64,000 bases of DNA from Burkholderia sp. Bp8992 (GTDB lineage Bacteria > Pseudomonadota > Gammaproteobacteria > Burkholderiales > Burkholderiaceae): positions 33,875 to 97,874 of the forward strand of contig NZ_QTQI01000029.1 of assembly GCF_003853705.1 (NCBI RefSeq), read 5' to 3'. Of the stretch, positions 5,916-12,540 are shown piece after piece. A program made the translations under genes and the position numbers. Each line of letters begins with the position of its first letter. The stretch's first letter is position 1. The notes beneath the pieces are model-generated. The model had not been told where the DNA came from, made no database searches, and worked only from the letters and a program-made list of their open reading frames with translations.

Positions 5916-6599
5916 TCAGTTCAGCCCGGTGCGCTCGCCGACCCAGCGGGCGAAATCGCCGGCCATTTCCGCAGTCAGTTCGTGCCCGGCCGCGTACAGC
6001 CGCGTATCGTGCGCGACGCCGAGCGCCGTGAGCTTCGCGTCGGCCGTGTCGGCCCAGGCGACGGGCAGCTTGTCGTCGAAGCGGCCGTGGACGATCAGCG
6101 CATGGAGCGGACGAAGCGCATCGCGCGGCGCGATCAGCGGATCGATTTCCGGCAGGATGCGCCCGCACAGCACGGCGAACGCGCTCACGTCTTCCGGTGA
6201 CGTGAGGCCGACGCCGGCGCTCATGATGCCGCCCTGGCTGAAGCCGGCGATCACGGTCGGCAACGCGGAATCCGCGCCGTCCTGCGCACGGAACGCGCGC
6301 AGCAGCGCGATCAGCTGCACGCGGCTGGCGTCCGCGCGGGCCGCATCGATTTCGGGGCCGTTCGGGCCGAAGCGCACCGGAAACCACGCATGCTGATTGG
6401 GCCCGAACGTGAGCGGCCCGCGCAGGAACGCGATTTCGATGCGCGGATCGATCGCGTCGGCCACGTTCAGCAGGTTGGTTTCGTTGCCGCCGACGCCGTG
6501 CAGCAGCAACAGGCGTGCGGCGGGGCGGCCGGCAGCCGGGCGCAGCCGGTACTGGAGGCCCGAATCGGGATCGGTGGTCAGCGGCAGGACGTCGGTCAT
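5916..6599 (-). CDS. Alpha/beta-hydrolase, carboxylesterase/phospholipase family
   Basis: This 227-residue small serine esterase is related to the YpfH/Est family. The oxyanion-hole motif LLLHGVGGNE lies at about residues 32-40. The nucleophile elbow is GFSQGG with Ser121. A candidate acid residue lies in GRFDDKLPV (around 177) and the histidine in AAGHELT (around 207). There is no signal peptide, so it should be cytoplasmic. It would cleave short acyl esters or lysophospholipids; the physiological substrate is unknown. It is transcribed alone, convergent with ansP. Confidence 0.8.
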   Translation of the reverse strand: MTDVLPLTTDPDSGLQYRLRPAAGRPAARLLLLHGVGGNETNLLNVADAIDPRIEIAFLRGPLTFGPNQHAWFPVRFGPNGPEIDAARADASRVQLIALLRAFRAQDGADSALPTVIAGFSQGGIMSAGVGLTSPEDVSAFAVLCGRILPEIDPLIAPRDALRPLHALIVHGRFDDKLPVAWADTADAKLTALGVAHDTRLYAAGHELTAEMAGDFARWVGERTGLN

Positions 6600-6762
6600 C
6601 GCGTGGGTCCGGAAAGGGGAACGATGCGACAGTCTAGAGCGTGCGGACGGGGAGGTGAATCGCCGGATGGCGATTGATTGTTTCCTGGTCGGAATGAATC
6701 GGGCTGCGGTTCCTGCCGGGGACAGATCGCCGATATCGCGAAGGACGGCGCAGGCCTGCGGA

Positions 6763-7047
6763 CGCCATTACGGCGCATACAAGAGCCAGCGAGCCGCCGC
6801 GAACGTGGCGCGCGTCGAGGCACTGCAGTTCGAGGTCGTCACGTTCGATGTCGAGGATGCGCAGCATGCCGGCGAAATCCGTGCGTATCTGACTGCCGCT
6901 GGTACGCCGATAGGCCCTTACGACGCGTTGATTGCAGGGCAGGCACGTGCCCGGCAGCTGGTGCTTGTCACGCACAATGTCCGTGAGTTCGAACGTGTCC
7001 CGCGGCTGCAAGTCGAAGACTGGCTCGTCGAGCCGAACGAAGGCTGA
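6763..7047 (+). pseudogene. 5'-truncated vapC-like PIN toxin remnant
   Basis: Reading in frame to the TGA at 7045-7047, the translation matches the C-terminal two thirds of VapC (PIN-domain) toxins: RHYGAYKSQRAAANVARVEAL, then EIRAYLTAAGTPIGPYDALI, then LVLVTHNVREFERVP and LQVEDWL. The central and C-terminal acidic residues are kept. The first 40-odd residues, including the start and the first active-site Asp (LDTN), are absent from all frames upstream, and no VapB partner is seen. It is interpreted as a decayed toxin-antitoxin locus. Confidence 0.7.
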
Positions 7048-7449: not shown

Positions 7450-9837
7450 ATGACCATCCGTCATCGCATTACGCTGCTAGTCGTCCTGACGTTCTTCGCG
7501 CTGTCCGCGATCGGCATCTATGCCGTGTACCAGACACGCAAGAGCGCGTCCGAGGTGCGTCAGGTCACCCAGGGCATCGTGCCGAGCGCGCTCGCGTCGG
7601 CCGACCTCGTCGCCGATGTGAAGAACATCCAGATCGCGACGATGACGCTCGTCTATGCGCCCGACGCGAACACCGCCGCGCAGGCGCGCGACGAGCTGAA
7701 GGCGAAGCAGGCCGCGCTGCGCGCCGCACTCGACGTGCAGGCGAAATCGGCGGTCGGCCGCGCGCAGGAAGGCCTCGTCGCGCAGGCGAAGGACAGCGTC
7801 GCGAACTATTTCGCGGCGATCGACGACACCGTGAAGATGAAGGCGGACGGCAAGGCCGAGATGGCGCAGGCCTACCTGTTCGCGAACGTCGCGCAGTATC
7901 GCGACGAACTCGAGAGCATCGTCGACACGCTGCGCGTCGAGAAGAACCGCCAGAAGGACGACGCGATCAGCGCGCTGAACGGGATGCTCGCCACGACGGC
8001 GACCGCGATCGCGGGTGTCGCCGGCACGGTGATCGTGCTGCTGACCGCCCTCGGCTTCGTGTTGTATCGCCAGATCACGCGCCCGCTGATCGGGATGCAG
8101 ACGGCGATGAGCGAGATCGCGACGAGCCAGGATTTCACGCGCCGCGTGCCGGTGGGCCGGATGGACGAAATCGGCCATTCGATCGTCGCGTTCAACGGGA
8201 TGATCGAGAAGATCCAGGAGAACGCCGCGCAGCTCAAGCAGAAGACGGCCGACATCCAGGCGATGCTGCAGAACATGCAGCAGGGCATCCTGACCGTCGT
8301 CGAGGGCGGTGTCGTGCATGCGGAATATTCGGCGTACCTCGAAACCATCTTCGAGACGAACGACATCGCCGGCCGCGACCTGATGGCGCTCGTGTTCGAC
8401 GATTCGGCGATCGGCGCCGACGCGCGTTCGCAGGTCGATGCGGCCGTGCACGCGTGTCTCGGCGAAGACAGCATGAACTTCGAATTCAACGAGCACCTGC
8501 TCGTCAACGAAGTCGCGAAGCGGATGCCGGACGGCCGCGAGAAGTGGCTCGACCTGAGCTGGTCGGCGATCACCGACGAGACCGACACGGTCGTGCGCCT
8601 GATGCTGTGCGTGCGCGACGTGACCGAGATCCGCGAGCTGACCGCGCAGGCCGGCGAGCAGCAGCGCCGCCTCGAGATGATCGGCGAGATCCTGTCGATC
8701 AGCCAGGACAAGTTCCACGACTTCGTGCACAGCGCGAAGGGCTTCCTCAGCGAGAACGAGCGGATGATCCGCCAGCACGAACGCGCCGATCACTCGATCG
8801 TCGCGGCGCTGTTCCGCAACATGCACACGATCAAGGGCAATGCACGCACGTACAGCCTGCAGCACCTGACGAACATCGTCCACGAAGCGGAGCAGGCGTA
8901 CGAATCGCTGCGTCGTGCGGACGGCGGCCCCGAGTGGAACCGCGACGCGCTGATGGACGACCTGGCGCGCGTGCGCGACGCCGTCGAACACTACGCGACG
9001 ATCAATGCGGTCACGCTCGGTCGCAGCGGCGAAGCGGCGCAGGGCGGCGCCGACTTCCTGATGGTCGAACGTGCGCATATCAGCGAAAGCCTGCGCGTGC
9101 TCGACGGCGCCGATCCGGCGAACGTGTCCGACTGGCACGCGGCCCGCGATGCCGTGCGCCGCATGCTGAGCCAGCTCGGCACGCAGGGCATCGGCGATGC
9201 GCTCGGCGGCGTGATCGAGTCGCTGCCGTCGCTCGCGGCCGAACTCGGCAAGCCGGCGCCCGTCGTGCATATCGACAGCCACGGCCATCGCGTGCGCAGC
9301 GAGATCGTCGCGACGCTGAAGAACGTGTTCATGCACCTGCTGCGCAATGCGATCGACCATGGCATCGAATCGTCGGAAGAGCGGCGCGCGGCCGGCAAGG
9401 CGGCGTCCGGCACGATCGACATCGCGGTCGGCGTGGGCGGCGGCGAGCTGTGGTTCGTGCTCGGCGACGACGGCCGCGGCCTGGCGCTCGACCGGATTCG
9501 CCGCATCGCGCGCGAGCGCGGCTGGATCGAGGCGGGCAACGAAGCGGCGCTGTCCGACGAGGATGTCGCCGAGCTGATTTTCCGGCCGGGCTTCTCGACC
9601 GCGCAAGCGGTGACCGAAGTGTCGGGCCGCGGCGTCGGCATGGACGCGGTGCGCAACTTCCTGAAACGCGACGGCGGCAATATCGCGCTGCGTTTCACCG
9701 ACGATCGCGCCGGCGCACCGTATCGCACGTTCGAGACGATCGTGTCGCTGCCGGCGCGCTTCGCGGCGGACGCTGCCGTCGACGGCGCCGGGCATGAGCA
9801 GCGTGCGCGCATCGCGGATATCGGCGCAGCGGAGTGA
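7450..9837 (+). CDS. Membrane-bound CheA-like histidine kinase (HAMP, HPt, ATPase; no CheW domain)
   Basis: This 795-residue protein has two membrane segments (about 7-27 and 184-206) flanking a helical periplasmic sensor of about 150 residues, resembling four-helix-bundle receptor sensors. A HAMP domain follows (about 208-262), then a coiled coil and a PAS-like region (about 270-400). An HPt-like helix bundle carries His459 in MHTIKGNAR. A CheA-type ATPase has the N box LLRNAIDHG (Asn633), GDDGRGL and GRGVGMDAVR. It ends shortly after the ATPase, so the CheW-like P5 domain of true CheA is missing, and no obvious P2 domain is present. It would phosphorylate the CheY encoded at 12175. It heads a five-gene run with overlaps or short gaps. 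Confidence 0.85.
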   Translation: MTIRHRITLLVVLTFFALSAIGIYAVYQTRKSASEVRQVTQGIVPSALASADLVADVKNIQIATMTLVYAPDANTAAQARDELKAKQAALRAALDVQAKSAVGRAQEGLVAQAKDSVANYFAAIDDTVKMKADGKAEMAQAYLFANVAQYRDELESIVDTLRVEKNRQKDDAISALNGMLATTATAIAGVAGTVIVLLTALGFVLYRQITRPLIGMQTAMSEIATSQDFTRRVPVGRMDEIGHSIVAFNGMIEKIQENAAQLKQKTADIQAMLQNMQQGILTVVEGGVVHAEYSAYLETIFETNDIAGRDLMALVFDDSAIGADARSQVDAAVHACLGEDSMNFEFNEHLLVNEVAKRMPDGREKWLDLSWSAITDETDTVVRLMLCVRDVTEIRELTAQAGEQQRRLEMIGEILSISQDKFHDFVHSAKGFLSENERMIRQHERADHSIVAALFRNMHTIKGNARTYSLQHLTNIVHEAEQAYESLRRADGGPEWNRDALMDDLARVRDAVEHYATINAVTLGRSGEAAQGGADFLMVERAHISESLRVLDGADPANVSDWHAARDAVRRMLSQLGTQGIGDALGGVIESLPSLAAELGKPAPVVHIDSHGHRVRSEIVATLKNVFMHLLRNAIDHGIESSEERRAAGKAASGTIDIAVGVGGGELWFVLGDDGRGLALDRIRRIARERGWIEAGNEAALSDEDVAELIFRPGFSTAQAVTEVSGRGVGMDAVRNFLKRDGGNIALRFTDDRAGAPYRTFETIVSLPARFAADAAVDGAGHEQRARIADIGAAE

Positions 9838-9841
9838 CGAA

Positions 9842-10585
9842 GTGATCGTGCAGGCGTGGATGATTCAGGTGGCCGCCGCGCTGGCGGGCGGTGCGGTCGT
9901 CGCGGTGGCGGCGGTCGTGTTTCGCGTGACGCGCCGGCGGCGCGTCGCGGCGATGGCGCACGACGCGGATACGTTGCGCGGCGCGCTCGCCGCGGCCGAC
10001 GCACGCGCGAAAGAGGCGGCGTCCGCGCATGCGGCGGCGGCCGACGCCTGGGCGCAACGCGAGGCGCAGCTCGAGGAGGCGCTGGCGCGCGAGGCGTCCG
10101 CGGCCGGCACGCAGCGCGATGCGCTGCAGGCGCTGTCGGCCGACCGCGCGGCGCTCGCGCAGCATGCGATGAAGATCGCCGACGAAGCGGCGCGCCTGCG
10201 CGGCCTCGCCGGCACGTTCGAGCGCTGGCACGAGCAGATGATCTCGCTGACCACGCAGAACCAGGACATGCGCGTGAAGAACCAGGAGCTGTCGGCGATC
10301 GTCGCGCACGTGTCGATCGTGTCGCTGAACGCGTCGATCGAAGCCGCCCGCGCGGGGTCGGCCGGGCGCGGCTTCTCGATCGTCGCGAGCGAGGTGCGCG
10401 GGCTGGCCGCGCGCTCGCAGCAATTGTCGAATAGCTATCGCGACAGCCTGAACCGCAACGATCTCGTGACGGCCGCCACGTTCCAGGACATCCAGGCCGG
10501 CGGCAAGATGATCACGGCCGCGCTCGCGACCGTCGAGACGCTGGCCGGGCAGCTGCACGCACGCATCGAAGGAGAGGCGGCGTGA
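9842..10585 (+). CDS. Chemoreceptor-like signalling protein with one membrane segment and no sensor domain
   Basis: This 247-residue protein starts with one membrane helix (about residues 5-28). A long Ala-rich coiled coil follows (about 30-150), then the conserved hairpin tip of methyl-accepting chemotaxis proteins (about 155-195: SLNASIEAARAG, GFSIVASEVRGLA). It has no periplasmic ligand domain, and the cytoplasmic helices are too short for normal methylation sites. GTG 9842 is preferred because it lies 4 bases after the kinase stop and behind GGAGTGA; an ATG at 9794 would overlap the kinase by 44 bases. It may be the adaptor that couples to the upstream kinase in place of CheW. Confidence 0.75.
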   Translation: MIVQAWMIQVAAALAGGAVVAVAAVVFRVTRRRRVAAMAHDADTLRGALAAADARAKEAASAHAAAADAWAQREAQLEEALAREASAAGTQRDALQALSADRAALAQHAMKIADEAARLRGLAGTFERWHEQMISLTTQNQDMRVKNQELSAIVAHVSIVSLNASIEAARAGSAGRGFSIVASEVRGLAARSQQLSNSYRDSLNRNDLVTAATFQDIQAGGKMITAALATVETLAGQLHARIEGEAA

Positions 10586-11163
10586 TCAGCGCGCAGGCGA
10601 AGGCCGGCTTCGAGCGGATCTTCTTCGACGCGGCGCGCACGCGGCTCGCGTCCGGCGGCGCGTGCGACATCCGGCCGTCCGCCGGCCACGAGCATGGCGG
10701 GCACGATCGCTCGCATGCGCGGTCGCGGTCGATGCCGAAGGTGCCCGAGCATGTCGCGGTGCTGACGATCTCGGCGCTGCATTTCCGCCTGCTGCTCGCG
10801 CTGCGCTTCAGCGACGACGACGCGACGCGCCGCCGTTTCGCCGGCGCGAGTGCCGGCACCAGCAGCCAGCGGCCGCTGCCCGAGGCATTCATGGAAGTCG
10901 CGAACCTGTGCTGCGGCGCGATCAACCAGGCGCTGACCGTGCCGTTTCCCGATCTCGGGATGTCGACGCCGACCCTGCTGAGCGGCGCGAGCATCGACTA
11001 CCTGCCGGCGCTCGCACCCGATCACGTGGCCGCGTACGACCTGACGCTCGACGGCGACGTGCGGGTCGGCGCGACGCTGTGCGTGTGCGCGAACGCGCCG
11101 GTCGATTTCCATGTGCCGGAAACGGCCGCCGTGGATACCGGCGGCGAGCTCGAACTGTTCTGA
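10582..11163 (+). CDS. CheX-like chemotaxis phosphatase
   Basis: This 193-residue protein contains the ExxN signature of the CheC/CheX/FliY phosphatases in MEVANLCCGAINQAL (about residues 104-118). The motif supplies the Glu and Asn that position water for dephosphorylating CheY. The predicted role is to dephosphorylate the neighbouring CheY. Its GTG start overlaps the upstream stop by 4 bases, indicating translational coupling. The C terminus GELELF is identical to that of the next gene product, which suggests duplication or a shared docking tail. A His-rich stretch (HEHGGHDRSHARSRS, about 35-50) is unusual. Confidence 0.7.
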   Translation: MISAQAKAGFERIFFDAARTRLASGGACDIRPSAGHEHGGHDRSHARSRSMPKVPEHVAVLTISALHFRLLLALRFSDDDATRRRFAGASAGTSSQRPLPEAFMEVANLCCGAINQALTVPFPDLGMSTPTLLSGASIDYLPALAPDHVAAYDLTLDGDVRVGATLCVCANAPVDFHVPETAAVDTGGELELF

Positions 11164-11185
11164 CCGACCATCAGGAATCCATGAG

Positions 11186-12145
11186 ATGACCGAAGACCAA
11201 CCCGTCAGCAAGGTGCTCGTCCTCGACGACAGCCGCGCACACGCCGATGCGATCAAGCGCTTCTGCGACGAGCACAACCTGGTCGGCCTGACCGTGCGGC
11301 GCAGCCGGCTGCTGAAGGTGCTGCGCTCGAACATCGACCTCGGCGCGATCCTGCTGGCCGAGGATTACGGCGGCTCGCCGGCCGAGAGCGCGATCATCGC
11401 GACGCAGATCGATGCGCTGCGCCCCGAGCTGCCGATCATCCTGCGCCGCGAATCGCTCGCGTCGCGCGACGGGCTGCCCGATGCGCTCGCGCGCGTCGCG
11501 TGCGCGGCCTACGTCGCGGACGACATGACGCCGCTCGCGCGTGCGATCGACGAATACCTGTTCGGCCGCGACTATCCGAACGCGCTCGTGCGCGGCATCT
11601 CGGAGATCACCGAGGCGCGCATCGACAGCCTGTTCCCGGGCATGGCGATCGAGCACGAGACGCCGTGCATCGTCCGCGACCAGATCATCTTCGGCGAAGT
11701 GTTCAGCCTGATCGCGCTTGAAAGCGCGTGGTGCCGCGGCTACATGCTGCTGCAGACGAGCGAGCAGCCGCTGCTCGACATGATCGGCGGCACGCGCGAG
11801 GGCGGCCGCGCGCCGGATTTCCGCGACGTGAACAGTGTGCTCGGCGAACTGACGAACCTCGTGTGGGGCGCGTTCAAGAACCGCTATCTCGGCGATGCGG
11901 AGGCACTGGCGCGCCATCCGGTGCAGGTGCCGCTCGTCGTCAATCACAAGCAGAAGTTCATCTCGTTCGGCGGCGACTGTCCGCAGCTCTGCTTCAAGTA
12001 CCGGATGACCGACCCGGCTTCGGGACGCTCGGTCCGTCTCGACCAGCGTTTCGTGTTCAGCCTGAGCTGGTCGCCGGAGGATTTCCGCGAATCGGTGCAG
12101 GACGTCGGGCCGATGGTCGAATCGGGCGAACTCGAACTGTTTTGA
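11186..12145 (+). CDS. Receiver-CheX fusion protein with degenerate receiver
   Basis: In this 319-residue protein, residues 5-120 fold as a receiver domain (VSKVLVLDDSRAHADAI). The third-strand acidic site reads LLAEDYGG, and the conserved Lys of the KPF motif is replaced (AAYVADDM), so it may not be a normal phospho-acceptor. Residues about 125-319 are CheX-like with an ExxN motif in LGELTNLVWGAFKNRY. It ends in GELELF like the preceding protein. Start ATG 11186 is 23 bases after the previous stop. It is likely a second phosphatase or a regulatory sink in the same relay; the exact role is not established. Confidence 0.7.
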   Translation: MTEDQPVSKVLVLDDSRAHADAIKRFCDEHNLVGLTVRRSRLLKVLRSNIDLGAILLAEDYGGSPAESAIIATQIDALRPELPIILRRESLASRDGLPDALARVACAAYVADDMTPLARAIDEYLFGRDYPNALVRGISEITEARIDSLFPGMAIEHETPCIVRDQIIFGEVFSLIALESAWCRGYMLLQTSEQPLLDMIGGTREGGRAPDFRDVNSVLGELTNLVWGAFKNRYLGDAEALARHPVQVPLVVNHKQKFISFGGDCPQLCFKYRMTDPASGRSVRLDQRFVFSLSWSPEDFRESVQDVGPMVESGELELF

Positions 12146-12174
12146 AGTCAGCAACAAGGAAAGGGGAATACGAC

Positions 12175-12540
12175 ATGGCAAAGATTCTGGTGGTCGACGA
12201 TTCGGGCACGGTGCGCGACGAAGTCGCGGGCTTCCTGCGCAACAACGGGCTCGACGTCGCGACGGCCGTCGACGGCAAGGACGGGCTCGCGAAGCTCAAG
12301 GCGACGCCCGGCGTGCGCCTCGTGATCAGCGACGTGAACATGCCGAACATGGACGGCCTGACGATGGTCGAGAAGATCCGCGGCGAACTGGCGAACACGG
12401 CGGTCAACGTCGTGATGCTGACGACGGAAAGCAGCCCGGCGATGAAGGAGCGCGGCAAGGCGGCCGGCGTGAAGGGCTGGATCGTGAAGCCGTTCAAGGG
12501 CGACGCGGTGCTCGACGCGCTGAAGAAGCTCGCGGGCTGA
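12175..12540 (+). CDS. CheY-like single-domain response regulator
   Basis: This 121-residue stand-alone receiver has all active-site elements: the acidic pair in LVVDDS, the phospho-acceptor Asp in ISDVNMPNMDG, the Thr in MLTTES, and the Lys in IVKPFK. There is no output domain, so it would act by protein-protein contact, as CheY does at the flagellar switch or at another target. ATG 12175 follows AAGGAAAGGGG. It is the last gene of the chemosensory-like run and the expected substrate of the kinase at 7450 and the phosphatases at 10582 and 11186. Confidence 0.88.
   Translation: MAKILVVDDSGTVRDEVAGFLRNNGLDVATAVDGKDGLAKLKATPGVRLVISDVNMPNMDGLTMVEKIRGELANTAVNVVMLTTESSPAMKERGKAAGVKGWIVKPFKGDAVLDALKKLAG

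Follow-up and report, generated by a model that had tools for sequence, protein, structure and literature searches.

The 64,000-nucleotide (nt) stretch of Burkholderia sp. Bp8992 analysed here (contig NZ_QTQI01000029.1, positions 33,875 to 97,874; hereafter the window) contained, at nt 7450..12540 on the plus strand, five adjacent genes of one orientation designated K, H, X1, X2 and Y, which encoded a membrane sensor kinase, a membrane-anchored chemoreceptor hairpin, two CheX-type proteins and a stand-alone CheY, respectively. We consider it somewhat probable that chemosensory parts here make up a phosphorelay complete in itself, in which K would signal to Y, X1 and X2 would form the off-switch and H would organise or control K. 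The anatomy of the module supports such a relay, since the gene set, the domains, the motifs, the synteny, and a C-terminal tail exclusive, among 100 family genomes, to those carrying K were all observed. A first-pass annotation of the window had described five adjacent genes of these part types, and domain matches, motifs and synteny confirmed that this compact set is real. Its broader interpretation was upheld in part: the gene set, its conservation as a unit and a kinase with its own sensor stood, but the constancy of X2 and the absence of CheW from the cell did not.

A CheA-type kinase with its own sensor

K (nt 7450..9837, plus strand, 795 amino acids [aa]) was found by Pfam search to possess a 4HB_MCP sensor (residues 1-161), a HAMP domain (205-257), a sub-threshold PAS domain (268-391), an Hpt domain (447-510) containing the motif MHTIKGNART with His459, and a CheA-type HATPase domain (622-747). 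The presence of P1/Hpt and of a CheA-type P4/HATPase_c was also indicated by NCBIfam and PDB, in both of which K matched the catalytic region of CheA, and the motif MHT[IV]KGN[AG]RT as well as the N-box motif were conserved in 75/75 K proteins. As the first-pass annotation had stated, the kinase lacked the CheW-binding domain: the P5/CheW domain PF01584 had no Pfam match in K or in 9 other module K proteins, and just 43-96 residues followed GRGVGM in all 75, too few for the 138-position P5 domain. The P3 domain PF02895 was likewise without a match in K and 9 others, a result to be read with the remark in the CheA survey PMC10782961 that HMMER often misses P3; two PDB CheA matches to K began at residue 594, ahead of P4. 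In that survey, a CheW domain was present in 100% of the CheA proteins, a figure that may be partly by construction, the set having been drawn via MiST 3.0. By this definition K, having no P5, is not a CheA, but it may still work like one.

That the kinase itself holds the sensor, also proposed earlier, agreed with the 4HB_MCP and HAMP regions of K and with the variation among nine distant module loci, where the sensor was 4HB-like (two of them sub-cut-off), not recognised, or 4HB plus GAF. This variation suggests that sensing is the task of K. The window K was 97.6% identical to its counterpart in a Burkholderia arboris replicon and 95.6% to that in a B. cenocepacia replicon, which very probably places the window in this part of the genus. 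In a quick tree of the ATPase domain (22 module K, 101 rows), the 22 K proteins fell on one side of a branch with a Shimodaira-Hasegawa-like approximate likelihood ratio test value of 84 (not starred). A derivation of K from one CheA class was set aside, the nearest outside row being the long-branched L096 and no CheA class. Two different K genes were located side by side within one module at L080:7293-12481.

Conservation and gene order

Samples of 150 Burkholderiaceae genomes (family), 250 genomes of the order and 299 of the phylum were searched. K was found in 67 of the 150 family genomes (E of at most 1.9e-250; G014 was matched over residues 148-776 only), with H, X1 and Y on the strand of K at all 67 loci, and was missing from 2 of the 15 sampled genomes of the nearest genome's genus (G084 and G135). 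Outside Burkholderiaceae the module occurred only sporadically. When Y was the query and the best 14-17 candidates per genome were scored, matches were obtained in 9/250 order genomes and 3/299 phylum genomes (G001 counted in both); with X2 the numbers were 9/250, including G001 and one weak partial match, and 3/299.

Chance neighbourhood was rejected, as 75 of 76 regions carried K, H, X1 and Y together; the remaining region, L054, had X2 only. X2 was present at 45 of the 75 module loci and missing at 30, so that the core consists of four genes, and the synteny of five genes expected among relatives held for K, H, X1 and Y, with X2 being optional. The order was K-H-X1-X2-Y at 40 loci, K-H-X1-Y at 30, K-X2-Y-H-X1 at 2 and H-X1-X2-Y-K at 1, while L063 and L065 sorted differently merely from the use of long open frames; an additional locus, L193, had K-Y-H-X1. 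All five genes occurred at L077-L081 and L099 (Burkholderia, Trinickia, Methylobacter, Ferrovaceae, Pseudomonadales and others) and on replicons of B. cenocepacia and Caballeronia (L075, L076). Beside the other matches (the best 80 of 592), no match to X1 or X2 was found. No conserved sixth gene was detected, in that no open reading frame (ORF) of at least 100 aa in the flanks was common to more than 4 of 22 loci; the most widespread flank genes (4/22 loci) looked generic by eye, e.g. LysR-like regulators. On a plasmid of Ideonella dechloratans (L074:11692-16712), Y was matched over about its first 56 residues only and was followed by integrase and diversity-generating retroelement genes; thus, an insertion seems to have ended this copy of the module.

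CheX proteins and their common tail

X1 (nt 10582..11163, plus strand, 193 aa, E105xxN108), whose 5' end overlapped the end of H, and X2 (nt 11186..12145, plus strand, 319 aa), an optional component consisting of a degenerate receiver-like N-domain and a CheX domain, both showed the CheX fold. For X2, the Pfam CheX match was over the cut-off, the PDB matches were 3iic, 6vpw and 3h2d (CheX/CheC-like), and the N-domain resembled the receiver Y with 82% local probability. For X1, the Pfam CheX match was sub-threshold and the comparison with PDB sequences gave a weak E=0.24 for CheX. The E-x-x-N motif was present in 46/46 X2 proteins and, as E..N[LMI], in 73/75 X1 proteins (72/75 with a stricter pattern), L051 and L052 having E..N with a different next residue. 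On these features X1 and X2 are putative phosphatases of phosphorylated Y (Y~P).

Both proteins ended in GELELF, encoded on the plus strand at nt 11143..11160 in X1 and 12125..12142 in X2. Tail alignments showed G....F at the C-terminus of X1 in 75/75 (exact GELELF in 69) and of X2 in 46/46 (exact in 25). When 100 family genomes were scanned with a degenerate DNA pattern for GELELF followed by a stop codon, 45 sites were found in 37 genomes, the reversed control pattern giving 1 match. All 45 sites lay at most 5 kb from K, and they were present in 37 of the 38 K-bearing genomes but in none of the remaining 62.

At L054:7174-8238 (genome G209), a second X2 homologue with 33% identity and the ending GELEFF stood alone, with no K, H, X1 or Y adjoining. 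X2 appeared to be frame-broken at L065:8973-9927 and carried an internal stop at L049:1772-2722, which fits a dispensable X2, although sequencing error is possible.

The hairpin protein and the main chemosensory array

H (nt 9842..10585, plus strand) probably starts at the GTG of nt 9842, giving 247 aa, within an ORF readable from nt 9794, and consisted of one transmembrane (TM) helix, a coiled coil and a truncated chemoreceptor hairpin tip. PF00015 (MCPsignal) matched H with E=1e-14, the tip core was kept in 75/75 H proteins, and a hydrophobic N-terminal stretch was above threshold in 73/75. The residues L380, N381, E385, R388, R394 and F396, in the numbering of Escherichia coli Tsr, were invariant in the 75 proteins. 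By contrast, position 375 was V in 72/75 (T in 1), position 376 was N in 0/75 and position 391 was acidic in 8/75, as against T375 in 38/38, N376 in 95% and an acidic 391 in 97% of ordinary tips, the latter being 38 of 43 methyl-accepting chemotaxis protein (MCP) matches (5 had no findable tip) from loci picked by likeness to K. The first-pass annotation had suggested that the hairpin protein may replace CheW; the altered tip is compatible with H having some partner different from the ordinary CheW, short of proof. Judged by eye, the hairpin also seems not long enough to hold a complete adaptation region.

These residues bear in both directions on an alternative that we regard as rather unlikely, namely that H uses the CheW and CheA of the cell, joining the main array or competing for it, and that the module is an accessory chemotaxis arm. 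The six invariant tip residues favour it, and so does the presence of CheW in 36/36 module genomes searched and in 67/67 K-bearing family genomes. The first-pass description of a relay without CheW, CheR or CheB was therefore correct for the cluster, none of whose five genes matched any of the three in Pfam, but not for the cells, which encode CheW elsewhere. However, co-occurrence with CheW is weak evidence, since 108/150 family genomes have CheW overall, and the substitutions at positions 375, 376 and 391 set H apart from ordinary tips.

A second conserved motif, TFQDxQA, was located 47 residues past the tip in 75/75 H proteins and in 0/37 other receptor rows displayed. It recalls the CheZ motif, DFQDLTGQ, but CheZ-like catalysis in H was rejected, as no Q stands four residues past the D. 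In the vicinity of cheY and cheA, short proteins with an MCP signalling domain at L097:5876-7096, L106:4957-6162 and L152:4207-5442 had FQD(R/L)xxQ 109 residues past the tip, with the CheZ-like D-x-x-x-Q spacing.

The regulator Y and the flagellar motor

Y (nt 12175..12540, plus strand, 121 aa, Response_reg E=2e-23) had D53 as the phospho-acceptor, and VDDS, DVNMPNMDG, KPF and MLTTE were each found in 75/75 Y proteins. Its identity to the window copy, 71-99% in 39 loci and 64% in L099, was far above that of H or X1. The nearest solved relative was 4h60/4hnr (E=1.7e-25), with the common stretch SP..K..GKA.G..GW.VKPF, and Y had the alpha4-beta5 type of this protein, which by table order is Vibrio cholerae CheY4 (VcCheY4). 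According to PMC3774744, VcCheY4 did not pull down FliM, and CheZ and FliM use one common face of CheY.

This relationship counts against a flagellar input, in which Y~P would bind FliM and deliver a non-adapting motor signal, or Y would drain phosphoryl groups from the main CheY. FliM was encoded in 67/67 K-bearing family genomes, and in genus g24 K and FliM were on one contig about 65-145 kb apart in 9/13 K-bearing genomes. FliM was, however, also found in 42/83 family genomes without a full-length K. The FliM-less family genomes numbered 41, and all of the 20 listed are at most 2.8 Mb, so genome size confounds the co-occurrence of CheW and FliM with K. We judge a flagellar input unlikely; the target of Y~P is, by analogy with VcCheY4, probably not FliM and is predicted to be encoded elsewhere.

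That K is a conventional two-component kinase, beside which genes resembling those of chemotaxis lie by accident, is highly improbable, because the genes co-occur through rearranged orders, X1 and X2 have a common tail and the H-specific motif is invariant, even though a HAMP-Hpt-HATPase kinase with no CheW match does exist at L082 with the other genes not on its 6.1-kb contig, and the kinases at L088 and L096 are similar (Hpt below the cut-off).

Proposed signalling pathway

In the phosphorelay that we favour, K would sense by means of domains of its own in the periplasm and the cytoplasm, its CheA-type catalytic domain would phosphorylate His459 of the Hpt domain, and the phosphoryl group would pass from there to D53 of Y. 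X1, together with X2 where present, would dephosphorylate Y by the CheX mechanism, and Y~P would act on the target encoded elsewhere. The common GELELF tail would dock X1 and X2 to one partner within the module, most likely Y. CheZ docks on CheY via a C-terminal tail ending in Phe; this analogy, together with the CheY face common to CheZ and FliM and the VcCheY4-type alpha4-beta5 of Y, makes Y the favoured partner. H would be a minimal receptor hairpin, anchored in the membrane, which either organises K or is coupled in trans to the kinase core, a task that in ordinary arrays is performed by P5 and CheW. H is the least certain piece: it may serve K as a tip acting in trans, or it may be an adaptor towards the main array. 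The catalytic steps, the partner of the tail, the role of H and the output are all predicted from sequence.

Several observations weigh against this pathway. Three of five X1 structure models had a mean predicted local distance difference test score below 60, and X1 and X2 matched each other weakly when their profiles were compared directly (probability 11%). One K-bearing genome, G093, was without an exact GELELF tail, and most of the canonical receptor tip was retained in H. Moreover, no module genome without CheW or FliM was found (36 module genomes for CheW and 67 K-bearing family genomes for both), which leaves room for coupling to the main array or to the motor.

Other features of the region

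In a promoter and terminator scan, promoter-like sites numbered 3 against an expectation of 0.8, and terminator-like sites 5 against 2.9. A reading as a defence system was set aside, PADLOC having returned only a weak match in K and another in Y. Upstream of K, an ORF at nt 6397-7044 had a C-terminal PIN domain match (E=4e-8) and is perhaps a VapC remnant.

Comparison with known systems

No published description of the module gene set was found in the open-licence literature, in agreement with the first-pass view that no such system had been described; one candidate, PMC5789663, proved unrelated, its CheX being situated in a Rhizobium operon. It is conceivable, though on balance doubtful, that the module represents a third wiring of chemosensory parts, with a sensor-fused CheA-type kinase, a detached receptor tip controlling it in trans while CheW and P5 are dispensed with, and two CheX phosphatases directed to the module by a private tail. 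A central question about chemosensory arrays is how the receptor tip controls CheA via P5 and CheW. A natural system that retained tip and catalytic core yet lost P5 would reveal what a tip can achieve by itself, and the conserved GELELF tail would be a short addressing signal amenable to testing.

Taken by itself, this type of kinase is not new, since the L082 kinase from a metagenome-assembled genome of Deltaproteobacteria (less clearly those of L088 and L096) likewise combined Hpt with a CheA-like ATPase and had no CheW match, but no module H, X1, X2 or Y was present on the stretch analysed. CheA1 of Borrelia burgdorferi, a 'chemosensory-like histidine kinase', is likewise a kinase of chemosensory type that is dispensable for chemotaxis in vitro according to the title of PMC10703414, but the abstract calls it a chemotaxis histidine kinase. 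Compared with CheX of Thermotoga maritima (1squ/1xko) and the Borrelia CheX-CheY complex (3hzh), X1 is divergent, X2 is fused to a degenerate receiver, and both have the GELELF tail, a comparison confined to these CheX proteins. VcCheY4 (4h60, 4hnr), the nearest solved relative of Y, belongs to chemosensory cluster III according to PMC3774744, whereas the module Y lies beside K with no CheW gene. With canonical Che systems the module shares a CheA-type catalytic domain, an Hpt domain, a receptor tip, a CheY and a CheX-type phosphatase. It differs from them in that the kinase carries the sensor and the membrane anchor and is without P5, the genes for CheW, CheR and CheB are missing from the module, the receptor is cut down to one TM helix, a coiled coil and a truncated hairpin, and two CheX proteins share a common tail.

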